64,000 nucleotides of DNA from Bradyrhizobiaceae bacterium (lineage in GTDB: Bacteria; Pseudomonadota; Alphaproteobacteria; Rhizobiales; Aestuariivirgaceae): NCBI GenBank assembly GCA_947475225.1, contig CANJMQ010000005.1:1-64000 (forward strand), written 5' to 3'. The notes beneath the pieces were generated by a model. The model was not told where the DNA came from. It did no database searches and saw only the letters and a list, made by a program, of their open reading frames with translations. Each line of letters begins with the position of its first letter. Position 1 is the stretch's first letter. The translations under genes were made by a program, and so were the position numbers. Below are positions 7,904-44,128 of this stretch, piece after piece.

Positions 7904-8853
7904 CAGAAGCTGTACCTCTGGATGCGGCGCTGCACGAGGAAGAGATAGGCCATGACACCGATAAGAATGATGAGCAACATCATGGTCGCGACCGCTGACC
8001 CCATGGACGGGTCACCCAGCTGGAGCTGGTTTCCGAAGAAGGTGCGGTAGAACAGAGTGCCCATGATGTCAGTGGCGAAGTTGGGGCCTGCCAGCGCGCC
8101 CTTCATTGCATAGACAAGGTCAAATGCATTGAAGTTGTTGACGAAGGTGAGGATGGAGACGAGCCCGATGGTGGGCCAGATCAGCGGCAGCTTCACCCAG
8201 ACGAAGGCCTGGAACTGGTTGAGGCCATCCACCGTGGCCGCATCGACGAGTTCATCCGGGATCGCCAGCAAAGCCGTATAGATCAGGATCATCGGGATGC
8301 CGACGAACTGCCATACCGAGATCAGCGACACCGTGATGAGCGCGGACGACTCCAGCCCCAGCCACGGCGCGAAGAGGAAACCCAGACCGAAGGTTTGCAG
8401 GAACATCTTGGCGATGCCCCACAGCGGCGAAAGGATGAGCTGCCAGGCGAATCCGATGACAACGACGGAAAGCATGGTCGGCATGAAGATCAGCGTGCGG
8501 TAGGTGGCGCGAAAGCGCAGCCTCGGCAGGCTCAGCAGGGCCGCCAGCAGCAGGCCCACCGGGTTCTGCACGCACATGTGGATCAGGAAAAAGATAAAAT
8601 TGTTCTTCAGCGCGTTCCAGAATGGGACCGACCACGTGGGATCGAACAGCAACGTCTGGAAGTTGCCGAGCCCGTTCCACAGATAGCTGCCATCTCTCTG
8701 GTGGCTGTAGAGCGAGTTCAGAATGGTGGCAAGCAGCGGGTAGATCGAAAACACGGAATAGACCAGCAGCGCCGGCCCGAGGAAGAACACCAGAAGCCGC
8801 AGGAAAGTGCCCTGCGGCATGCCGACCAATCCGCTGTGCTGTTCGGACGCCAT
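7903..8853 (-). CDS. Sugar ABC transporter permease, MalF type
   Basis: Inner-membrane permease, 316 residues, about six membrane segments ('GPALLVYSVFSIYPLLATIL' first). The EAA-like loop reads 'DAATVDGLNQFQAFVWVKLP'. Start ATG 8853 follows a TTG that could add one residue; an internal ATG at 8820 is another option because no strong Shine-Dalgarno is visible for the first. A perfect 12-bp hairpin lies just upstream in the mRNA, between the binding-protein gene and this one, which would be expected to lower permease expression relative to the binding protein. Confidence 0.9.
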   Translation of the reverse strand: MASEQHSGLVGMPQGTFLRLLVFFLGPALLVYSVFSIYPLLATILNSLYSHQRDGSYLWNGLGNFQTLLFDPTWSVPFWNALKNNFIFFLIHMCVQNPVGLLLAALLSLPRLRFRATYRTLIFMPTMLSVVVIGFAWQLILSPLWGIAKMFLQTFGLGFLFAPWLGLESSALITVSLISVWQFVGIPMILIYTALLAIPDELVDAATVDGLNQFQAFVWVKLPLIWPTIGLVSILTFVNNFNAFDLVYAMKGALAGPNFATDIMGTLFYRTFFGNQLQLGDPSMGSAVATMMLLIILIGVMAYLFLVQRRIQRYSF

Positions 8854-8867
8854 CAAGGAAACGGAAA

Positions 8868-8893
8868 GGCCGCACGCGCCAGCGCGTGCGGCC
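8868..8893 (-). terminator. Intercistronic stem-loop between binding-protein and permease genes
   Basis: Perfect inverted repeat GGCCGCACGCGC / GCGCGTGCGGCC (12 bp, 2-nt centre) in the 52-bp gap after the substrate-binding-protein stop codon. On the transcribed (minus) strand it is followed by a pyrimidine-rich CCTTTCCGTTTCC, not a clean U-run. This fits a partial terminator or 3'-end stabiliser of the kind known between malE and malF, allowing excess binding protein over permeases. Structure is seen directly; function is inference. Confidence 0.65.
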
Positions 8894-8905
8894 CGCCTCG
8901 TCAGC

Positions 8906-10162
8906 CTACTTCTGCTGCGGCGCGTACCACTTCTTCAGCCCGTCCTGGAGCTGGGCGGCGGCGGCCTCCGGCGTCATGGTGCCATTGATCACCTGGGCCG
9001 AGACATTCCACATCTCGTTCTCGAGATTGGGCGTGCCGCGCGACAGGATCTGGTAGGAGTTTCGGATCGTCGACTTGCACTCGGCGCGCCAGTTGACAAA
9101 GGTCTGGGCCACATCGTCCTTCAGCTGGACCTTGGCGTTGGAGAGCGGGAAAAAGCCCGGCAATTCGTTGCCGAGGATGTTGGCGAACTCCTCCGTGCCG
9201 ATCCAGTCCAGGAACACCTTGGCATCCGCCGGGTTCTTGGTCTTGGCGTTCATGCCGATGCCCATGTCGGTGTGGTCCGAGATGAAACATTCGGTGGCGC
9301 CTGCCGGCAGCGGCGGCTTGAAGGCGCCCATGTTGATGTTCTGGGCATGGAAGGTGGAGATGTCCCATGAGCCCGCAGCATAGATCGCTCCCTTGCCGAG
9401 GCCGAAGAGGTTCTGGCTGTCAGGATAGGTTTGGGCCTTGTAGCCGTCACCGAGATAGGGCGCCCACTTGGCGAGGGTGGCAAAGGTCGAGACATAGGCG
9501 GGGTCGGTGAGCTTGCCCGTGCCGTCGATCAGCGCCTTGCGGCCTTCCTCACCCTTCCAGTAGTTGGGACCAATGTTCTGGAAGCCCATGGTGGCAGACT
9601 CCCACTGGTCGGCGGTGCCCATCACGAGGGGCACATAGGTGCCGTTCGCCTTGATCTTCTCGAGGACGGCGAAGAACTCGTCTTCCGTCTTGGGCTCGGA
9701 AAGGCCCAGTTCTTTGAAGATATCCTTGTTGTAGATGAAGCCGTGGATCACCGAGGCCATGGGCACGCAGAAGGTGGTCTTGCCGTCATCCGTCGTCCAG
9801 GCGCTCTTGGCGACGTCCGAGAAGTTGGCCATCGTGGACAGGTCATTCAACGAGGCGAGATAGCCCTTGTTGAAGAGTTCCAGCGACGCATCGAAGGGGC
9901 GGCAGGTGATGATGTCACCCGCCGTGCCACCCTCGAGCTTGGCATTGAGCGCAGCGTTGTATTCCTTCGGCGCTGTCGGCGCGAATTCGATCTTGATATC
10001 CGGATGAGCCTTCTCGAAGGCGGGGATGATCTTGTCTTTCCAGATCTGGGCGTCGTCATTGCGCCAGCTCTCGATGGTCAGCGTGCCGCCCTGAGCCGCA
10101 CCCGAAAGTGCGAGCGCTGCGACGGCGCCGAGGAGAAGAGTCTTCAGTCCTTTGGTCAGCAT
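8906..10162 (-). CDS. Sugar ABC transporter substrate-binding protein
   Basis: A 418-residue periplasmic extracellular solute-binding protein (family 1). The N-terminal signal peptide is 'MLTKGLKTLLLGAVAALALS' ending near AQG/GTLTIESW. Typical features are 'GTLTIESWRNDDAQIWKDKI' and 'DIITCRPFDAS' in the N lobe and 'PGFFPLSNAKVQ' in the C lobe. ATG 10162 is preceded by a strong GGGAGGAA ribosome-binding site. It follows murQ by 36 bp and belongs to the same leftward operon. The linked catabolic genes suggest GlcNAc, chitobiose, MurNAc or a GlcNAc-MurNAc fragment as ligand; the sequence alone does not settle which. Confidence 0.92.
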   Translation of the reverse strand: MLTKGLKTLLLGAVAALALSGAAQGGTLTIESWRNDDAQIWKDKIIPAFEKAHPDIKIEFAPTAPKEYNAALNAKLEGGTAGDIITCRPFDASLELFNKGYLASLNDLSTMANFSDVAKSAWTTDDGKTTFCVPMASVIHGFIYNKDIFKELGLSEPKTEDEFFAVLEKIKANGTYVPLVMGTADQWESATMGFQNIGPNYWKGEEGRKALIDGTGKLTDPAYVSTFATLAKWAPYLGDGYKAQTYPDSQNLFGLGKGAIYAAGSWDISTFHAQNINMGAFKPPLPAGATECFISDHTDMGIGMNAKTKNPADAKVFLDWIGTEEFANILGNELPGFFPLSNAKVQLKDDVAQTFVNWRAECKSTIRNSYQILSRGTPNLENEMWNVSAQVINGTMTPEAAAAQLQDGLKKWYAPQQK

Positions 10163-35671: not shown

Positions 35672-36571
35672 TCAGAACTGAATGTTGAGCAGCGAGAAAT
35701 CGTCCGGAAGCGGGCCCGGCCCATTGAGCCCCCGCACCCAGTCGAGCACTTCGTCAGGGCTAGCGCTACGGGCCAGCCGTTCAACAAAGACCGGAAACTC
35801 CAGCATCTCGCCGGGTGCGGTCTCCACTTCAAAGGTCCCGTCGCTTACAATATGGAGGCGATCACCCTCGCCAATCGCACATTGCGCGGCGCGATAGCTC
35901 ATGGCCTCGAGCATGCCGATGGCGATGCCCGGGGTCGAAAGCGTCACCACGCTGCCGTCCGCCTTGCGCAGCACGGAGGGCGGATGGCCACCGCTCGCAT
36001 AGCGAAGCTCGCCGGTGCTGCGCTTCAGAACGCCATACCAGATGGTGAAATACATGTTGTTCTGCCTTTCCATCGGAAAGGCCTCGTTCAAGGCGGAGAG
36101 TACGGCGCCCGGGTCGCGGAAGTCGGTGTTGGGAAGCGCTGCCGAGCGAAGGACGTTGATAGCCGTCACTGAAAGCAGGGCCGCACCCACGCCGTGACCA
36201 CACACGTCGAGCAGGTAGAAGGCGATATGGTCGCCATCGATCTCGTGATAGCCAAAGCTGTCACCGCCGAGTTCCGTGGAAGGCACCAGCAGCCACTCGG
36301 TGCGGGGTGTTTCCTTGCGGGGCTCGGGCAGGATCGAGAAAATATAGTTCGCGGCTTCGGTGAGTTCCTCGGAGAGCCGCTTCTGGGTGACTTGCAGGGC
36401 GAGGTTCGCCTCGGCGAGTTGGTCTTCCACCGCCTCGCCGTGCTCGATCGTCGCCTGATAAAGGAGGTTGATGTCCTCAAGCTCCGCCTTCACGCTGGCG
36501 AGTTCGTCCTCGAGTGCGGCGAGCCGGCCCTCGGGACCGGCTGCGCCCTCAATACCTGGATCCGCGCTCAC
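35672..36571 (-). CDS. Coiled-coil SpoIIE/RsbU-type PP2C phosphatase
   Basis: 299 residues. N-terminal coiled coil (about 15-85) with no membrane segment, then a SpoIIE-type phosphatase: 'STELGGDSFGYHEIDGDHI' (metal Asp), 'FYLLDVCGHGVGAALLSVTA' (DxxGHG), 'RYASGGHPPSVL' and 'PDDFSLLNIQF'. In partner-switching systems this enzyme dephosphorylates the STAS protein, encoded immediately upstream. The GTG at 36571 overlaps the STAS stop (GTGA). Confidence 0.88.
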   Translation of the reverse strand: MSADPGIEGAAGPEGRLAALEDELASVKAELEDINLLYQATIEHGEAVEDQLAEANLALQVTQKRLSEELTEAANYIFSILPEPRKETPRTEWLLVPSTELGGDSFGYHEIDGDHIAFYLLDVCGHGVGAALLSVTAINVLRSAALPNTDFRDPGAVLSALNEAFPMERQNNMYFTIWYGVLKRSTGELRYASGGHPPSVLRKADGSVVTLSTPGIAIGMLEAMSYRAAQCAIGEGDRLHIVSDGTFEVETAPGEMLEFPVFVERLARSASPDEVLDWVRGLNGPGPLPDDFSLLNIQF

Positions 36572-36906
36572 GCGAGCGAGGAGATCGCCTGGGCGACGCT
36601 GTCGTGCAGGCCGAAGATGTTGTCAAAGCCCGAGACGGCAAGGACTTCCTTAACGTTGTTCTTTGCGCAGGCGATGGTGAGGCCGCCACCCGCCGTCTTC
36701 GCCTTCTTGGCGGTCGTCAGGATCACGCGCAGCCCGGCCGACGAGATGTAGTCGAGGTCAGTTGCGTCGATCACTACCTTCTTCGGGCCCTTGTCGAGAA
36801 GGGCTGAGGCATCGTCCTCAAAGGCCTTGGCGCTGCTCGAATCGATGCGGCGCGACGGCTTGAGAACGAGGGCGCCGTTCACGGTTTCGTGGTTGAGGCT
36901 GGTCAC
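36568..36906 (-). CDS. STAS-domain anti-sigma-factor antagonist-like protein
   Basis: 112-residue single STAS domain. The phospho-acceptor region is 'VVIDATDLDYISSAGLRVIL' with S55 and S56. It starts at GTG 36906 with GGAG eight bases upstream. In known systems the unphosphorylated STAS protein binds the kinase and frees its target. No sigma factor is encoded nearby, so the output may not be sigma release. Confidence 0.88.
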   Translation of the reverse strand: MTSLNHETVNGALVLKPSRRIDSSSAKAFEDDASALLDKGPKKVVIDATDLDYISSAGLRVILTTAKKAKTAGGGLTIACAKNNVKEVLAVSGFDNIFGLHDSVAQAISSLA

Positions 36907-36931: not shown

Positions 36932-37369
36932 CTAGGCTGCCTTCACTTTCATTTCCATAGTCAAACGGTTGAACCCATCGACACGCCTGTAGTCAAGACG
37001 GTCCATGAAGCTTTTCACGAGTGTGAGGCCCAGCCCCCCCACTTCGCGGGATTCGATGTCGCCGGCGGGCGGCGTGGTTTCGGCGGCCAGCGGGTCGAAA
37101 GCTGGGCCATTATCACCAAGTTCGGCATGCAGAATGCCATCCCGCTGTTCAATGGCGAGGACAATAATGCCGTCGCTGCGGCCTGCGAGGCCATAGGAGA
37201 TGATATTGGTGATCAGCTCATCCAAGGCCAGGCCAAAGCGCAGGCACTGCTCCGCCGGGATGCCGTGCGCCGCGCCGAATTCCTCCAGGCTGTCGATGAC
37301 GCGTGCCACCTCCTGAACGTCATTCGCCAGCGACATATCGAGGCGGCCGGTCACGCGAAAATCCTTCAT
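36932..37369 (-). CDS. RsbW-like ATP-binding anti-sigma factor/serine kinase
   Basis: 145-residue GHKL ATPase. N box 'LALDELITNIISYG' with the Mg-binding Asn (N55), G1 box 'GDNGPAFDP' (D86), G2 box 'EVGGLGLTLVKSFMDRLDY'. All ATP-binding boxes look intact, so it is expected to phosphorylate the STAS protein downstream. ATG 37369 is used; a TTG three bases earlier is possible. First gene of the leftward ATPase - STAS - phosphatase - LssY_C operon. Confidence 0.87.
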   Translation of the reverse strand: MKDFRVTGRLDMSLANDVQEVARVIDSLEEFGAAHGIPAEQCLRFGLALDELITNIISYGLAGRSDGIIVLAIEQRDGILHAELGDNGPAFDPLAAETTPPAGDIESREVGGLGLTLVKSFMDRLDYRRVDGFNRLTMEMKVKAA

Positions 37370-37548
37370 CAAGTTCGTTACAGTGGCGGGTATCGCACGT
37401 CAGCGCCGCAGGTCAAGCCCCTGCATCGCTGGCGGGTTGCCGCGAACTGCTGGCGGAAGCGCATAAATGATGATTTCGCTTGGCGTCAAAACTGGTTATG
37501 GTGCGCGCCGCGGCGATGACTGCCGATCAGACATTTTCTTACGGGGCC

Positions 37549-38205
37549 ATGACCATGCTGACAGTTCCAGAGGAATTCCTCCTCCTCACCCTCAAGGATG
37601 AAGACGGCGGTTTCGTCGATATTCCGCTGGAATACCAGCGGGCCGGCTTTGTTGGTGCAGCGATCATGGAACTCGCGCTTCAGGGCCGTCTTGACAACGA
37701 CGTCAATCGCGTCTGGGTTGTAGACAAGACCCCGACCGGCGATGCCTCGCTCGACCCGGTGCTGGCGCGCCTCTCGGCCGCCGACTTCGATAGCAGCGCT
37801 GACAATCTCATCAACCAGTTGATCGAACTTGGCGACCCGGTGCGCGAACAGGCCCTGAAGCGGCTGTGCGACAAGAGGATCCTGGTCGAGACCGAGGGCC
37901 GCCTGCTGTGGTTCCTCAAGACCCGCCGCTACCCGGCAATCGACGGCAAGGAAATCCGCGAGGTAAAGCTGCGCCTTCTGGAAGTCCTGCTCCGCGACGG
38001 CCTGCCCGACCCGCGCGACTGCTGCCTGATGTCGCTGGCCGAGACCTGCGGCATCATTCGTCAGATCGTGCCGCAATCCGAACTGAAACAGGCACGCGAG
38101 CGGATCGCCAAATTCTCCAAGATGGAGCTGATCGGCCAGAACGTGAACCACTACATCGAGATCTTCGAGCGCGCCATGGCGCTGGCCACGCCGGCCCACA
38201 TGTAA
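37549..38205 (+). CDS. GPP34/GOLPH3-family protein
   Basis: 218 residues matching the bacterial GPP34 family: 'LTVPEEFLLLTLKDEDGGFV' at the start, 'YQRAGFVGAAIMELALQGRL', 'KRLCDKRILVETEGRLLWFL', 'RYPAIDGKEIREVKLRLLEV', 'RIAKFSKMELIGQNVNHYIE'. Eukaryotic GOLPH3 binds phosphatidylinositol-4-phosphate; what bacterial members bind is not established. Starts at 37498, 37516, 37549 and 37555 are possible; I prefer 37549 (weak GGGG upstream, begins just before the conserved fold). Divergent from the RsbW-like gene and ended by a strong shared terminator. Confidence 0.82.
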   Translation: MTMLTVPEEFLLLTLKDEDGGFVDIPLEYQRAGFVGAAIMELALQGRLDNDVNRVWVVDKTPTGDASLDPVLARLSAADFDSSADNLINQLIELGDPVREQALKRLCDKRILVETEGRLLWFLKTRRYPAIDGKEIREVKLRLLEVLLRDGLPDPRDCCLMSLAETCGIIRQIVPQSELKQARERIAKFSKMELIGQNVNHYIEIFERAMALATPAHM

Positions 38206-38259: not shown

Positions 38260-38991
38260 TCAGCGCTCGACCTTGTCGAGGTCAGCCTCCATGTCGCGCA
38301 CGCGCTCCATGGTGAGGAAGTCGAGCGTCATGGGCAGACCCAGTTCAACCGACGGGGCGTGCTGGAGCTTCACGCTGACACTGTTGGGCGCTGCGGCGAG
38401 CAGATGTCCTCCACGGGTGCGGTCCTTGGTGATGAAATGCAGGTGGAGGCCCGGGAGATGCACGCCGGCAAGAAAATTGGGTGTATAGAAACCGACGATG
38501 GTTCCCTCAACATCCCTGAACTCGAAAACCGTCTGCAGCTTGGCTATTTCGGCGAGCGGCAGGTAATTCATCATCTTCGGCACCGAGCGGGCGCGCACAT
38601 AGTCGAAGCGGCCATCGATGCGGATCGCATACATCAGGTTGGGTGATGGCACGAGCTCGAGCAGCGCATGCTCGAAGGCGGCTTCCTCCACTCTCCCGAA
38701 CTGATCCTCAGTGTCACCCTCGAAATGCGTGGTCAAGGCGAATGGAGTGCGAACGTCGTCGGCGATGACCTCGGCATTGCCGTGCGGCCTCAGACAGTAG
38801 ACTTGGCCGTCCAGCAGTACCATCTCACCATCGAGATCATTGAACGTACCGATGCCAAGATTACCCTTCAGGCGCAGACGCCCGATCGTGGTATCCGCGC
38901 GGTAAATGCCCTCAACGAGAGCCGCCAGCGGTGCAGAGATGAAAACGGGGGCCCGGGGCTTCCTATCGTTGCTATTTGCTGTCACGCGCAT
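38260..38991 (-). CDS. budA: Alpha-acetolactate decarboxylase
   Basis: Decarboxylates acetolactate to acetoin. 243 residues from ATG 38991 (GGGGGAG just upstream; GTG 38985 also possible). Family blocks: 'LRLKGNLGIGTFNDLDGEMV', 'DGQVYCLRPHGNAEVIADD', 'RIDGRFDYVRARSVPKM', and the zinc ligands in 'LPGLHLHFITKDRTRGGHLL'. No acetolactate synthase or butanediol dehydrogenase gene adjoins. Sits alone between the two signalling operons. Confidence 0.92.
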   Translation of the reverse strand: MRVTANSNDRKPRAPVFISAPLAALVEGIYRADTTIGRLRLKGNLGIGTFNDLDGEMVLLDGQVYCLRPHGNAEVIADDVRTPFALTTHFEGDTEDQFGRVEEAAFEHALLELVPSPNLMYAIRIDGRFDYVRARSVPKMMNYLPLAEIAKLQTVFEFRDVEGTIVGFYTPNFLAGVHLPGLHLHFITKDRTRGGHLLAAAPNSVSVKLQHAPSVELGLPMTLDFLTMERVRDMEADLDKVER

Positions 38992-39193
38992 CTCTCCCCC
39001 AGGTCTTACCGAGCGCGAAACTGTGATGCCGACGTCCCGAGCGCAAGCTAAATCTCCTTGTTCGAGCAATACGCCGCCGCTAGTATCGCGAACTGGGCGG
39101 CTCCTTTCGTAAGCTTCAATCTTCGCAACCCTCCTCTGTGATTTGCCTCCAGCAGATCACCGGACCGCCTGAGGACATGCCGGGACCAATGGA

Positions 39194-39685
39194 ATGAGTG
39201 GCACCAAACCGCTAGTCGAAATCTCCATGGGCATCGAGGCCTTCGCCTCGGAGTGGCTGCATTGCGACCGCATCTCGTCCTATCTTGCCCGCATGGTGAG
39301 CCACAACCGCACCGACTCGCTGCTCTACGCAAATCTGCTCAGTTCGGCACTCAACGAACTTCTTGAAACAGCATTCGCGCATCATGGGCCCGAAGGAAAC
39401 TTCTCCTGCCGGGTGAGCCGCTTGGGCGACAGCGATGTGATCGAGCTGGATCTGCCCTGCGATGACATGACGCTGGCCTTCTACCGCGACGCCGCGCAGC
39501 GACTGACGCAGCCTGACCTTGCAGGCATCTATCACTCCGCCCTGTTCTCTCCTGGCAAGCCTGACCCGCATCTGGGCCTGCTCGAAGTTGCCGTCGACTA
39601 CAGGGCGCGTATTGCTATCGTAGCGGAGAAGGGTAATCGGTTGAAGCTTGCGGCTGAATTAACACTTGAAGGAGCCGCAGCATGA
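39194..39685 (+). CDS. Degenerate SiaB/slr1658-like GHKL protein (probable pseudokinase)
   Basis: 163 residues. Aligns by eye with the second kinase-like protein at 43221: 'ALNELLETAFAHHGPEG' against 'LVNELLENAIKFRVPGS', and 'PDPHLGLLEVAVDYRARI' against 'SGSGLGLLTLMNDYGARL'. Two nucleotide-binding features are missing here: the N-box Asn (position 59 is Thr) and the Gly-rich lid (SGSG replaced by PDPH). It probably binds its partner without phosphorylating it. It overlaps the STAS-methyltransferase gene by ATGA. The family link is my pattern reading, so moderate confidence. Confidence 0.6.
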   Translation: MSGTKPLVEISMGIEAFASEWLHCDRISSYLARMVSHNRTDSLLYANLLSSALNELLETAFAHHGPEGNFSCRVSRLGDSDVIELDLPCDDMTLAFYRDAAQRLTQPDLAGIYHSALFSPGKPDPHLGLLEVAVDYRARIAIVAEKGNRLKLAAELTLEGAAA

Positions 39686-40851
39686 GCATTGACCGCAGTT
39701 ACCAGGCGAGCTTCAACGAGAACAACCAGGAGTTCGTCATAGCCGGCAAACTCCGCCCGCAGAGCGAAGATGAGATGAGGCCTCTCGCCGAGGCGCTCAC
39801 CAACTCGCTCGCACAAGTACGCGGCACTTTCTACCTGAACGTCAAGCGACTGGCACGGCTGAACAACGTCGCCTTCAGGGCAATCACCAATCTGGTGTCG
39901 CAGGTCTGCGACACGCGTCCCGAATTGAGGATCGAAGTGGTGACGTCCAGCGTGATGGGCTGGTCGACGCGCAAGTTCCTGCCACTCGCCGAGCGCCTGC
40001 CGAATGTCACCGTCAACGAATATGACAACGACTTCTATCCCGGCCAGTCCTTTCTCGAGGAAGGTGGCTTCATCCCAATCCTGCGCAACCAGACCAAGCT
40101 GACGTGGCGCCATGAACGGCACCTGCTGCCGCGCCACGGCCTGAAGCCTGGCATGACCGTTGCGGATATATGCTGCGGTATCGGCGACTTCGCCGTCCTT
40201 GTACAAAAGGAACTGAAGCCCTCCCACATCCTGGCGCTAGACCATTCGCGCACGAGCCTGGATTATGCACGCAAGGTGGCGGCGGAGTTCGGAATCGCCG
40301 ACATCGAATATGTTTATGGCGATGCCTCCGAGATGGTGATCGAGGACAACCAGTTCGACTTCGTCACTTGCCGGCATTCGCTGCAAATCTTCGATCGTCC
40401 GGAACTGATCCTCAAGGAACTCTACCGCATCTGCAAGCCCGGCGGTCGAGTGTACATCACCAACGAGAAGAACTCACATTGCCTTGGCGAACCACGCGGC
40501 GAGTCGATCCAGTGGACCTACACGGAAGTGGCGAAGCTCTTCGCGGACTTCAAGATGGATGTCGAGCTTGGGCCGAAGAGCCGCCGTTATCTGGCAGATG
40601 CAGGGTTCGAGGACATCCTCGTCGACAGCTTCATGGTGACCAACGGCGACGGCGACCCGCAGGACTTCGCCAACATGATCCAGGCGTGGGAAAACGTATT
40701 TGCTGGAGAAATGGCGCGAGACCGCGGTGACAGCCCGGAATTCATCGCCAGATTCCGTCAGGGTTTCCAGGACCAGATCTACGCTGCGCTACACCCCAAG
40801 GGATATGCTGGTTGGCCGATCTGGGCCGCTTCGGCGCGAAAGCCCACATGA
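39682..40851 (+). CDS. STAS-like (slr1659/SiaC-type) domain fused to a SAM-dependent methyltransferase
   Basis: 389 residues. Residues about 15-115 resemble the separate STAS-like protein at 43790: 'LNVKRLARLNNVAFRAITNL' against 'LDLTQLEFLNSSGINLLAKF', and 'SSVMGWSTRKFLPLAERL' against 'STKIPWQSKSLPNLQKL'. The acceptor Ser-Ser is replaced by Asn62-Val63. Residues about 140-290 form a class I methyltransferase: SAM motif I 'VADICCGIGDFAVLVQ', acidic loop 'ILALDHSRTSLDYARK', 'VYGDASEM', and 'YRICKPGGRVYI'. UbiE-like, but the substrate is unknown. Its stop overlaps the phosphatase start (ATGA). Confidence 0.78.
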   Translation: MSIDRSYQASFNENNQEFVIAGKLRPQSEDEMRPLAEALTNSLAQVRGTFYLNVKRLARLNNVAFRAITNLVSQVCDTRPELRIEVVTSSVMGWSTRKFLPLAERLPNVTVNEYDNDFYPGQSFLEEGGFIPILRNQTKLTWRHERHLLPRHGLKPGMTVADICCGIGDFAVLVQKELKPSHILALDHSRTSLDYARKVAAEFGIADIEYVYGDASEMVIEDNQFDFVTCRHSLQIFDRPELILKELYRICKPGGRVYITNEKNSHCLGEPRGESIQWTYTEVAKLFADFKMDVELGPKSRRYLADAGFEDILVDSFMVTNGDGDPQDFANMIQAWENVFAGEMARDRGDSPEFIARFRQGFQDQIYAALHPKGYAGWPIWAASARKPT

Positions 40852-43220
40852 CGGATATTCCTATCAGTCCACCGTTGAAAGGAAGCCTGCTCACCAGTTT
40901 CCGGACGAAGTTCATTGCGCTTCTCGGGGGCGCCGTGCTCGCGTCCCTGTTGCTCGGCGGTGTCGTGGCGCTGTGGAACGTTGCCAAACTGTCTCGTGAC
41001 GCCTCAACCGAAATCGAGACTGGCCTCACCAAGGCAAGCGAAGGATTTCTGGAGAGCTATATCGACATGACGGCGCAGCGCGCCGACCTGATGTTCGCGC
41101 GCACCTTCGACCAGGTGAACATGTTGGCAAATTTCACCCAGCGCCTCGTCGACGATCCGAAGCTCGGACGCGACCTTGGCGCGCTACTGAACGACAATAC
41201 CGGCTTCCAGGACTCGATGGTCTATGATGCGCAGACGCGCTGGCTGCAGAACCGCAGTGGCGAGCCTTCGGTCATCAGCGTATGGAGCTACCTCCTCGAC
41301 GGCAACGGCAAGATGCGTGCCGACGTCGAGCAGGCGGTGCGCGATTCGACCTCCTTCGATCTCGTCGCACCATCACTCATGGAAACCGGGCAGAGCAAAC
41401 TGCAGATGTATTATGTGGGGCCGAAGGAACGCCCCATCATGCGCACAGTCCCCTATTCGGACCAGGCCCAGAACTTCGACAAGCTTTACCCTGGCCACAA
41501 CGATAAGAACTGGTGGGATTTCTTCTTTCCCGGCGTCTATGAGGCCTGGCAGCAGTGGCTGAAGGACCCAGCCTCACGCCCCGTCGCCAACGATATTACA
41601 GTGCTGGCTCCCTACGTTGACGCCATCACCGGCCAGTTGATCGTCAGCTACTTCCAGCCGATCTACAACAAGTCGCGCAGCGATGTTGCCGGCATGGTGG
41701 GAGTGGACATCACGCTCGACCAGCTCACCCAATTGGTACAAGGCGTCAAGATCGCCGACACGGGATTCGCCTTCCTTGCGCAGCAAAACGGTAACGTTCT
41801 GACGGTGAAGGGTGAAGACGAGAAGCTTCTTGGCCTTACCGAAGTCTCCGCAGCCGGCACAGGCGTCACCAGCAATGAGCGCAGCCTGTTCAAGAGCAGT
41901 TTCCCGGACATTGCCAACCTCCGCATGCCGCGTCCGGGTGCCACCACCATCTCCAAGGTAACGGTCCAAAAGGATGGTAACCCGGTGGGATTGCTGGTTG
42001 TCATGCACCCGCTGCAGCCCATCAACATGTGGCAAGCCAATGGTGGAATCGGGGCAGAAAACCTGATGCTCGGTTTCGTGGTGCCCGAGAGCGAAGTCTA
42101 TGCCTCGCTCTACGGCGCGCAGAAGCAGATCGACACCGCGACCAACCGGATCGTAAAGGGCATTCTCGCCTCGGTACTTGGTTTTCTTGCGCTGGTGATG
42201 CTGCTGTCGATCCCGCTGTCGCGGCGCTTCACTGCAGGTCTCGTCGGTCTTGCCGACGCGGCAGGCCGGCTGACCAAGGGCGACTATGACGTGCGGGTGC
42301 CGGTGAAGGGCCGGGACGAGGTCGCCCTCGTGGGTACTGCGTTCAACTCTCTGGCGCGCGAGATTCGTGACCACACGGAGATGCTGGAACACCGTGTTTC
42401 CGAACGCACCGGCCAGCTCGCCTCGGCCAATGACGAAATCCAGCGCCTCTATGACAAGATGAAGGACGAGAACCTGCGGCTGGGAGCCGAACTCGACGTG
42501 GCGCGCAAGATCCAGATGATGGTGATGCCGACCCAGAGCGAGCTTGAGCGCATCCCCGATCTCGACATCGCAGGTTTTGCCGAACCCGCCGACGAGGTGG
42601 GCGGCGACTATTACGACGTTCTCTATGTTCCCGGCGGGGCCAAGATCGGTATCGGCGACGTCACCGGCCACGGCGTCGAAAGCGGAGTTCTGATGCTGAT
42701 GGTGCAGTCCGTGAGCCGCGCCCTCTATGAGCGTGGCGTTACGGACCCCCGGGAATTCCTCGACGTGCTGAACCGCTCGATCTTCAAGAACGTCGAGCGC
42801 ACCCGCTCGGACCGGCACCTTTCATTGGCCTTCGTGGACTACGCCGATGACCAGGCAACCATCTCAGGCCAGCACGAGGAAGTGATCATCGTCCGCAAGG
42901 ATGGCGAGGTCGAGCGGCTGGACACGATGGACCTTGGCTTCCCGATCGGACTCGAGGAAAACATCCACGACTTCCTGGCGAGCGTCACGGTCCCTTTCAC
43001 ACAGGGCGACACGATGGTGTTGTTCACCGACGGCATCACCGAGGCCGAGAGCGAGGATGGCAAGCTCTATGGAATCAGCAATCTGATCGCCTCGGTGAAA
43101 CGCGTGCACGCGGGAACGGCGGGGGCGATTGCCGACACCATCATCGCCGATGTGAGGGCCCATATCGGAAAACAGAAAGTTCACGACGACATCACCCTCG
43201 TCGTTCTGAAACACAGGTGA
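40848..43220 (+). CDS. Membrane sensor phosphatase: dCache-HAMP-SpoIIE (SiaA-like)
   Basis: 790 residues from ATG 40848 (ATGA overlap; a longer frame from 40812 is rejected). Membrane segment near 22-45 ('FIALLGGAVLASLLLGGVVA'), a periplasmic double-Cache sensor (about 50-430; 'DITVLAPYVDAITGQLIVSY', 'GMVGVDITLDQLTQLV'), a second membrane segment ('GILASVLGFLALVMLLSIPL'), HAMP, coiled coil, and SpoIIE phosphatase ('ADEVGGDYYDVLYVPGG', 'IGIGDVTGHGVESGVLMLM', 'DTMVLFTDGITEAES', 'HDDITLVVL'). The build equals SiaA of Pseudomonas. It is predicted to dephosphorylate the STAS-like protein at 43790 in response to an external small molecule. Confidence 0.9.
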   Translation: MTDIPISPPLKGSLLTSFRTKFIALLGGAVLASLLLGGVVALWNVAKLSRDASTEIETGLTKASEGFLESYIDMTAQRADLMFARTFDQVNMLANFTQRLVDDPKLGRDLGALLNDNTGFQDSMVYDAQTRWLQNRSGEPSVISVWSYLLDGNGKMRADVEQAVRDSTSFDLVAPSLMETGQSKLQMYYVGPKERPIMRTVPYSDQAQNFDKLYPGHNDKNWWDFFFPGVYEAWQQWLKDPASRPVANDITVLAPYVDAITGQLIVSYFQPIYNKSRSDVAGMVGVDITLDQLTQLVQGVKIADTGFAFLAQQNGNVLTVKGEDEKLLGLTEVSAAGTGVTSNERSLFKSSFPDIANLRMPRPGATTISKVTVQKDGNPVGLLVVMHPLQPINMWQANGGIGAENLMLGFVVPESEVYASLYGAQKQIDTATNRIVKGILASVLGFLALVMLLSIPLSRRFTAGLVGLADAAGRLTKGDYDVRVPVKGRDEVALVGTAFNSLAREIRDHTEMLEHRVSERTGQLASANDEIQRLYDKMKDENLRLGAELDVARKIQMMVMPTQSELERIPDLDIAGFAEPADEVGGDYYDVLYVPGGAKIGIGDVTGHGVESGVLMLMVQSVSRALYERGVTDPREFLDVLNRSIFKNVERTRSDRHLSLAFVDYADDQATISGQHEEVIIVRKDGEVERLDTMDLGFPIGLEENIHDFLASVTVPFTQGDTMVLFTDGITEAESEDGKLYGISNLIASVKRVHAGTAGAIADTIIADVRAHIGKQKVHDDITLVVLKHR

Positions 43221-43769
43221 ATGATGAATCAGTTCGGAGATACGGAACGGAACAATGGACCCACGGCCTTTGCCATGCGGATCATGATTTCTGATGGCCC
43301 GCTGGGCGTGAGCTGGCAGCATGCCAGCGAGACCTGCGAGTTCCTGGGAGACGTCTTTGCGCTCCGCCACGCCAAGGACGGCGCGGATTATACCGATGCG
43401 CGCCACTCGATCATCTATCTGGTCAACGAATTGCTCGAAAACGCCATCAAGTTCCGCGTGCCGGGCAGCATCAGCGTCGACTGTTCGCTTGAGGGTGGCA
43501 ATTTCGAACTGACCGTAAGCAATGATACTGCGCCGGCAGTTGCCGGCAGTTTCCAGACACTCATCAAGGAGATTATCTCGCGTGATCCCGGCGAATTGCT
43601 GATCGAGCGGATCGAGGCCAATGCGGCGGACGAAAATTCCTCGGGCTCCGGGCTCGGCCTCCTCACGCTGATGAATGACTACGGAGCGCGTCTCGGCTGG
43701 GACTTCCGCTCCTCGACCTCCGGCTCGGCGGTGACCCTCAGCACCCACGCGGCTCTCACCCTCAACTGA
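43221..43769 (+). CDS. SiaB/slr1658-like GHKL kinase-like protein
   Basis: 182 residues. N box 'IYLVNELLENAIKFR' (N74 conserved), no classical DxGxG box ('LTVSNDTAPAV' instead), Gly-rich lid 'ENSSGSGLGLLTLMNDYGAR'. This is the pattern of SiaB/slr1658 proteins, which phosphorylate a STAS-like partner in the Sia system. ATG 43221 or 43224 (AGGTGA just upstream). It directly follows the phosphatase and precedes the STAS-like gene. Confidence 0.78.
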   Translation: MMNQFGDTERNNGPTAFAMRIMISDGPLGVSWQHASETCEFLGDVFALRHAKDGADYTDARHSIIYLVNELLENAIKFRVPGSISVDCSLEGGNFELTVSNDTAPAVAGSFQTLIKEIISRDPGELLIERIEANAADENSSGSGLGLLTLMNDYGARLGWDFRSSTSGSAVTLSTHAALTLN

Positions 43770-43789
43770 ACTCCAAAGGTTTGCCTCAC

Positions 43790-44128
43790 ATGGAAATCAA
43801 GACCGGCGAATACAACGTCTGGAACGAAGGTTCCATCATCCACTACGAGGGAACGCTCAGGCTTTCGGGCACCGATGCCTATCAGCCGATCCTCGACCTC
43901 ATGCAGAAGGTGCTCGCAGACAAACCCGAGAACATCGTGCTGGACCTGACACAGCTCGAATTCCTCAACAGTTCCGGAATCAACCTGCTCGCCAAGTTCA
44001 CCATTGAGCTCAGGAAGCATCCGGACCTGCCCGTGAAGGTTCTCGGCTCCACCAAGATTCCGTGGCAGTCGAAGTCGCTGCCCAACCTGCAGAAATTGCA
44101 CAAGGGCGTCGAGCTCGTCATTGTCTGA
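43790..44128 (+). CDS. SiaC/slr1659-like STAS-fold phospho-acceptor protein
   Basis: 112 residues. Core 'IVLDLTQLEFLNSSGINLLA' with candidate acceptors S61/S62, and the family-specific 'LGSTKIPWQSKSLPNLQKL'. AAGGT precedes ATG 43790. It is the expected substrate of the kinase-like protein upstream and the phosphatase before that. Its downstream target is not evident: no diguanylate cyclase follows, unlike siaABCD. Its TGA is directly abutted by the stop of the convergent reductase gene. Confidence 0.82.
   Translation: MEIKTGEYNVWNEGSIIHYEGTLRLSGTDAYQPILDLMQKVLADKPENIVLDLTQLEFLNSSGINLLAKFTIELRKHPDLPVKVLGSTKIPWQSKSLPNLQKLHKGVELVIV

Follow-up and report, generated by a model that had tools for sequence, protein, structure and literature searches.

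The window, i.e., the whole 64,000-nucleotide stretch of DNA analysed, carries a cassette of five genes in the operon order A-B-C-D-E, whose second gene encodes a STAS domain fused to a predicted SAM-dependent methyltransferase. We tentatively interpret this cassette as a module for partner switching that contains two kinase/STAS pairs, paralogous to each other, and in which E would open a clamp made of A and B; judged from the sequences, the probability of this reading is roughly 0.45. The architecture points to methylation under the control of an outside signal. For the comparative analyses, public genome contigs were scanned, and the best 80 of 285 relatives (below, the best 80 of 285 loci) were selected; these come mostly from Hyphomicrobiales, with Mesorhizobium and Sinorhizobium/Ensifer as the prevailing genera, and five of the 80 (L027-L031) are contigs identical to loci taken from other genome sets.

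Gene B (39682..40851, forward strand, ATG start) encodes a protein of 389 aa. The earlier note had described its N-terminus as STAS-like and the remainder as a class I SAM methyltransferase, and both assignments held. Residues 5-114 (39694..40023, forward strand) form an slr1659-type STAS domain: residues 5-109 match the NCBIfam model NF047705 (slr1659_superfam) with an E-value of 1.7e-8 and 34.7 bits, which is under the curated cut-off of 100, and residues 15-111 align with protein E in a profile-profile comparison (probability 90%, E-value 1.6e-6, 19% identity). Structure prediction, named in the earlier note as a check on which the idea could fail, gave an AlphaFold2 model (mean pLDDT 84.4, pTM 0.66) with the strand/helix order b-b-a-b-a-b-a-b at residues 7-114, which we read as a STAS topology, followed by a low-confidence linker and a Rossmann-type methyltransferase. 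When the whole chain was compared with the PDB using Foldseek, the 50 matches listed were methyltransferases throughout and none of them matched the STAS half on its own, so the assignment of this half is based on the topology and the sequence profiles. The linker (residues 115-125; 40024..40056, forward strand), modelled with low confidence at residues 116-121, contains D115, F118, Y119, P120, G121, and Q122, which are kept in all 81 rows from the best 80 of 285 loci.

Residues 141-389 of B (40102..40848, forward strand) constitute the predicted methyltransferase, of which residues 141-261 fit UbiE/Methyltransf_11-type models (PF08241, 66.7 bits against a cut-off of 21.2). B exceeds the Pfam cut-offs for class I methyltransferases and has intact SAM motifs, by which it is predicted to belong to this class: SAM motif I (D162..G166.G168.D169) and D187 are invariant in 81 of 81 rows from the best 80 of 285 loci. 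Moreover, the median identity to the window's B is 0.78 for the methyltransferase half vs 0.44 for the STAS half (80 rows), and the invariant SAM-site residues, together with the better conservation of the methyltransferase half, argue for an active enzyme. An invariant C-terminal segment of the KGYAGWPIW type is also present. The nearest solved chains, among the matches listed, are 3mgg and phosphoethanolamine methyltransferases (5wp5), all with low identity. B does not belong to UbiE/MenG by the NCBIfam models (68.6 of 216 bits and lower) and stays below every NCBIfam cut-off listed. The possibility that the methyltransferase is a stray UbiE was rejected, as these cut-offs are not reached and no unfused close relative was found at E<=1e-25 in 385 class genomes; the four methyltransferase-half matches at this threshold are all parts of 393-400 aa reading frames and hence fused.

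The remaining genes of the cassette are all on the forward strand. Gene A (39194..39685) encodes an slr1658-like protein with a degenerate GHKL fold, a putative pseudokinase and candidate partner of B, while C (40848..43220) encodes a sensor phosphatase composed of a Cache-like region, HAMP, and SpoIIE/PP2C. They are accompanied by D (43221..43769), an slr1658 superfamily kinase with an intact N-box, and E (43781..44128; probable real start, the ATG at 43790), an slr1659 superfamily STAS protein with the motif NSSGIN. The frames of A and B, as well as those of B and C, overlap by 4 bases (ATGA), the next start lying on the previous stop; a scan for promoters and terminators found none. In C, PF07228 scores 126.8 bits and HAMP 44.5 bits, and dCache_1, with 43.1 bits, falls just under its cut-off of 45; the PP2C motifs GGDYYD and GDV[TS]GHG are found in 80/80 loci (best 80 of 285). 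D passes the slr1658 superfamily model NF047703 with 167.6 bits and E passes NF047705 with 137.2 bits (cut-off 100 in both cases). A matches NF047703 with an E-value of 6e-13 and 48.6 bits, i.e., below the cut-off of 100, and its distant homology with D is reflected by an E-value of 2.9e-9. In the public records of L108 (9459-9977) and L109 (9465-9980), gene A is named 'ubiquinone biosynthesis methyltransferase UbiE'; the window's A fits slr1658 and no methyltransferase model, and the name was probably carried over from gene B.

Among the best 80 of 285 loci, A-B-C-D-E is complete and on one strand in 79, the 80th ending at a contig edge, and the full-length fusion is present in all 80. Conserved linkage to phosphatase and kinase-like genes in relatives, the absence of which was to have counted against the idea of a switch, was thus found in 79/80 of these loci. 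In a separate search of relatives, the fusion was detected in 9/199 genomes, the window's own included, as 10 copies, all accompanied by A-E (in one of them the contig ends within A). Chance resemblance, a frame error, and an assembly artefact were rejected as explanations of B, given the full-length fusion in 80/80 loci (best 80 of 285) and in 9/199 genomes. One genome, G018, has two diverged cassette copies, on C7 and C88 (L020, L024). In wider samples the fusion occurred in 4/385 genomes of the class and 6/398 genomes of the phylum, own genome included in both. It is also present on 120 plasmid records, mainly of Sinorhizobium and Rhizobium, and the cassette is carried by pSymB of Sinorhizobium meliloti 1021 (461177-462322). 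The cassettes in records labelled 'Mycobacterium sp. KBS0706' (L103) and 'Gammaproteobacteria bacterium' (L061) branch among alphaproteobacterial rows, and judging by the sequences these taxon labels may be wrong.

As regards the neighbourhood of the cassette, genes for a GPP34-domain protein (37480-38205, forward strand) and an acetolactate decarboxylase (38260-39069, reverse strand) separate it in the window from the rP-rS-rH genes described below, and both genes accompany the cassette again in those Aestuariivirga-type loci that extend to this region. Furthermore, T6SS genes adjoin 9/80 loci (best 80 of 285) of Roseibium/Labrenzia, Rhizobium BK313, and R. mayense, i.e., L041 (22-6208 and 14765-19041), L044, L034, L035, L036, L040, L043, L075, and L100, where TssF/E/C/B/A are located upstream of rS-rH-rP and the cassette; L041 and L044 also have a Ser/Thr kinase and a TssH-like ATPase downstream. 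The cassette as a general component of T6SS was considered and rejected: T6SS genes adjoin these nine loci, but no VipB match was found in the window's own genome (87.8% complete).

For a comparison of the phosphosites, 81 B and 80 E proteins from the best 80 of 285 loci were aligned, and all counts in this and the following paragraph refer to this set. E has N-S-S-G-I-N in 80/80 loci, and in the window's B this NSSGI position is occupied by residues 61-65 (NNVAF). The column of the first serine of E holds Asn in 79/81 B proteins and Ser in 2/81; the second serine column holds Ala, Val, Ile, Leu, or Met, or Thr in 27/81; and the Gly of the NSSG motif is replaced by Ala in 79/81. Judged by Ser/Thr at the N-terminus of helix 2, B does not qualify as a phosphorylatable STAS protein. 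In SiaC, the phosphosite is T68 in the peptide LLYLNTSSIK, where it follows an Asn, according to the available part of PMC7647112; in our comparison, T68 corresponds to the first of the two E serines. The earlier note had pictured a SiaC-type switch with the methyltransferase as built-in output, and the alignment does not support this in the form stated: as the canonical column has no phosphorylatable residue, the STAS domain of B is probably not a phospho-switch itself.

The kinase-like proteins differ in a parallel manner. The N-box Asn, which binds Mg, is kept in D in 80/80 loci and missing from A in 81/81 rows, where Val, Thr, Ile, Met, or Leu is found instead, so that no A protein qualifies as an active GHKL kinase by this residue (0/81). 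The GSGLG box of A is poorly kept, with no conservation across rows. Three more distant genomes (L142-L144) have identical residue losses in A and B. The AlphaFold2 model of A (pLDDT 94.7) retrieved by Foldseek, as weak matches, SpoIIAB chains (best E-value 5.5e-4) and SiaB of 6kko (TM 0.64-0.69, with 6kko_B up to 0.69; E-values 1e-3 to 1e-2), and RsbW chains were also among the matches. From these residues we infer that A is a pseudokinase and the STAS domain of B non-phosphorylatable; the A/B pair resembles a degenerate copy of D/E that carries a methyltransferase, and D (as the kinase) and E are the predicted phospho-switch pair. Partial distance correlations, with the distances of the B methyltransferase and the C PP2C as controls, gave r of 0.57 for A/B-STAS, 0.53 for A/E, and 0.31 for D/E, and this weak test also gave 0.57 for D/B-STAS and 0.64 for A/D, hence A is not singled out and A-B is not separated from D-B pairing. 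Since the D/B-STAS correlation equals that of A/B-STAS, these values are compatible with an A/B clamp without deciding for it.

In the mechanism that we propose, E would be phosphorylated at its NSSG serine by the kinase D and dephosphorylated by C, the sensor phosphatase in the membrane. A, a kinase fold that seems to lack an ATP site, and the STAS domain of B, a fold that seems to lack a phosphosite, would hold each other with no turnover. Upon a signal, C would dephosphorylate E, and the unphosphorylated E would compete for A, which would change, and most likely release, the methyltransferase activity of B. As in the case of SiaC and the SiaD stalk, the unphosphorylated E might also bind a coiled-coil motif on a second output, which would be the PP2C phosphatase rP in the lineage of the window and a diguanylate or nucleotide cyclase elsewhere.

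The candidates for this second output are located in the vicinity of the cassette. In the window, rP (35672..36571, reverse strand; PF07228, 133 bits) is an RsbU-type PP2C phosphatase with an N-terminal coiled coil. Next to it, a second partner-switching set comprises rS (36568..36906, reverse strand), a canonical STAS antagonist (TIGR00377, 71.7 bits, cut-off 53.45; PF01740, 72.2 bits), and rH (36932..37372, reverse strand), an RsbW-type HATPase (PF13581, 80.5 bits). An rP homologue lies near the cassette, as in the window, in 20/80 loci, and a GGDEF-EAL gene, with domains assigned by Pfam, in 57/80 loci (best 80 of 285), for example L033, L037, L038, and L045-L058; it provides a possible link to c-di-GMP. 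In 56 of these 57 loci the GGDEF-EAL gene and A share a strand, the former being 49-386 bases upstream, and L105 has it on the opposite strand, about 1.7 kb upstream. None of the 80 loci has both genes, and three have neither (L029, which is on a short contig, L092, and L101). A tblastn search of the window with GGDEF-EAL proteins (E<=1e-3) gave no match. In the tree of B proteins, where the labels of L025 and L026 were assigned by hand, the GGDEF-EAL rows form one clade with one inferred change, so the mutual exclusion of rP and GGDEF-EAL amounts to about one event. The supposition of the earlier note that the methyltransferase simply takes the place of a c-di-GMP enzyme is not supported, as 57/80 of these loci have a GGDEF-EAL gene besides the fusion and the window contains a PP2C with the stalk motif instead. 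Gene content rather points to the methyltransferase as the constant output, with a second candidate output, GGDEF-EAL or rP, that varies.

The N-terminal part of rP carries a near-invariant stalk motif (LLYQATIEHGEAVEDQLAEAN; 36377..36508, reverse strand) of the TIEHGEAVEDQL type, which is a candidate docking helix for E. In rP the motif has the form LLYxATIEHGEAVEDQLAExN, and the conservation at rP residues 41-53 is 0.96 vs 0.70 in the PP2C domain (30 rows, some of them duplicates). A similar motif heads the GGDEF protein (8322-9140) of G621, encoded in an operon-like run (L139, G621:C96, 4485-9140) in the order GGDEF, slr1658, slr1659, a substrate-binding-like protein, and a SiaA-like PP2C. 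In the genomes of L092, L101, L043, and G025, nucleotide cyclase-like proteins are headed by such a motif too, their domains being read from sequence (the motif-bearing cyclase-like proteins are recorded as L155 and L160-L162). Among cassette genomes without a known GGDEF-EAL gene, the motif was found in 8/8 and 6/6 (two genome sets), 12 of these 14 having it in the linked rP itself and the other two, L092 and L101, only in a cyclase; the regular expression used for the stalk motif misses six rP proteins with variants (L042, L043, L079, and L142-L144). It was found in 0/4 and 0/10 genomes with the GGDEF-EAL-type cassette and in 0/9 genomes of the same genus without the cassette, with the reservation that a single-sequence motif search can miss diverged motifs. 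In these 14 GGDEF-EAL-type genomes, the docking of E would therefore need another site. In the class sample the motif was present in 2/190 genomes, G000 and G272; in a class sample of equal size, the slr1659 cut-off is passed by just these two. A 10-row motif profile recognised 2/279 genomes of the phylum sample, G000 and G621; as both of these contributed sequences to the profile, only the absence elsewhere is informative.

We propose as a hypothesis that the stalk motif is the docking site of E. E docked on the N-terminal helix of rP would presumably resemble RsbT on RsbU. The hypothesis follows the example of SiaC, which binds the coiled-coil stalk of its diguanylate cyclase target SiaD, as described in the available part of PMC8457831. 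The broader picture, i.e., a new kind of switch in which an extracytoplasmic signal sets methylation through the A + B clamp opened by E, while E reads out in parallel via a portable TIEHGEAVEDQL-type motif on PP2C phosphatases, diguanylate cyclases, and adenylate/guanylate cyclases, is put forward with greater caution, as a possible reading that we hold on balance to be the less probable outcome.

Three other explanations should be weighed against the clamp. According to the first, A and B form a fixed complex with a constitutive or substrate-regulated methyltransferase, C, D, and E control only rP or the GGDEF-EAL protein, and B supplies a product or modification for the same response. This would agree with the catalytically dead appearance of A/B as a phospho-switch, with some second output candidate near 77/80 loci (best 80 of 285), and with G621, where the slr1658/slr1659 pair stands with a SiaA-like PP2C and the motif-bearing GGDEF protein and no B-like methyltransferase gene was found on the 16-kb contig. 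However, it leaves unexplained why a STAS domain and a paralogous kinase-fold partner are kept in 80/80 loci (best 80 of 285) and why the linker of B is so strictly conserved, and we regard it as rather unlikely. According to the second, the STAS domain of B would itself act as a switch in the manner of SiaC: D or A would phosphorylate it, C would take the phosphate off again, and the methyltransferase would be its direct output. The homology of this domain with slr1659 speaks for it, and the B proteins with Thr one residue after the site (27/81) or Ser at the site (2/81) may be phosphorylated, but the Asn in the phosphosite column (79/81), the presence in the operon of E, a full-length NSSG protein, and the N-box Asn missing from A in 81/81 (best 80 of 285 loci) make this explanation improbable. 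There is equally little in favour of the third, in which B would methylate the sensor C or another partner within the module as an adaptation enzyme analogous to CheR, since its operon linkage to C (79/80 of the best 80 of 285 loci) and the chemoreceptor-like layout of C (Cache-like region, HAMP, and coiled coil) stand against the resemblance of B to UbiE/phosphoethanolamine-methyltransferase-type enzymes and not to CheR (PF01739, E-value 0.28), and against the sensor part of C, whose covariation with A, B-STAS, D, and E is not in excess (the B methyltransferase served as a control).

If the clamp reading is true, methylation would be a new output of STAS-based partner switches, and the decay of a duplicated switch would be a new way to make an output. 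The known outputs of such switches are for the most part sigma factors, with diguanylate cyclases in some few systems (see also the available parts of PMC8457831 and PMC7647112). The earlier note knew of no partner switch with a methyltransferase output, and we likewise found no description of a STAS-methyltransferase switch, nor of partners of slr1659-type STAS proteins, in the titles, abstracts, and text passages covered in the open-licence PMC literature; in a review of STAS-only proteins (PMC8256260) there is no word beginning with methyltransferase. If confirmed, the docking motif would provide a sequence signature for targets of slr1659-type STAS proteins. The conserved cassette is carried by soil and root-nodule bacteria, including well-studied rhizobia, in which these predictions are testable.

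Compared with known systems, the cassette resembles SiaABCD of Pseudomonas aeruginosa in combining a sensor PP2C, a GHKL-fold kinase, and a small STAS-fold protein in one operon, and differs from it in the additional degenerate kinase/STAS pair, the STAS domain of which is fused to a methyltransferase, and in the absence of a GGDEF gene from the operon of the window. The description of the operon as SiaABC-type was upheld for the sensor PP2C, the kinase-like genes, and their linkage, and not for SiaABC proper: E scores 13.1 of 150 bits with the SiaC model, which is absent for B among the 25 families listed, D scores 17.4 of 85 bits with the SiaB model, for which A has no match, and C scores 118.3 of 700 bits (residues 435-787) with the SiaA model. 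As these scores are far under the cut-offs, the cassette is not a SiaABC member by that test, and judging by sequence it is probably related to SiaABC. Relative to the slr1658/slr1659 pairs (NF047703, NF047705), D and E are members by the curated cut-offs, whereas A and the STAS domain of B stay under them, have lost key residues, and, in the case of B, have a methyltransferase. Single pairs of this kind without a B-like gene are found in G621 and on a plasmid of the cyanobacterium Kovacikia (L130, 6265-7345), the latter next to genes for two SulP-like transporters in which STAS and cyclic-nucleotide-like regions were read from the sequence. With SpoIIAA/SpoIIAB, RsbV/RsbW, and RsbU/RsbT the cassette shares a HATPase-fold partner, a STAS antagonist, and a PP2C phosphatase, whereas its proposed target, unlike those of SpoIIAA/SpoIIAB and RsbV/RsbW, is a STAS-fused methyltransferase and not a sigma factor. 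Finally, UbiE/COQ5 and the phosphoethanolamine N-methyltransferases are the families closest to B by profile and fold, and unlike these, B has its own N-terminal STAS domain and the C-terminal KGYAGWPIW-type segment.
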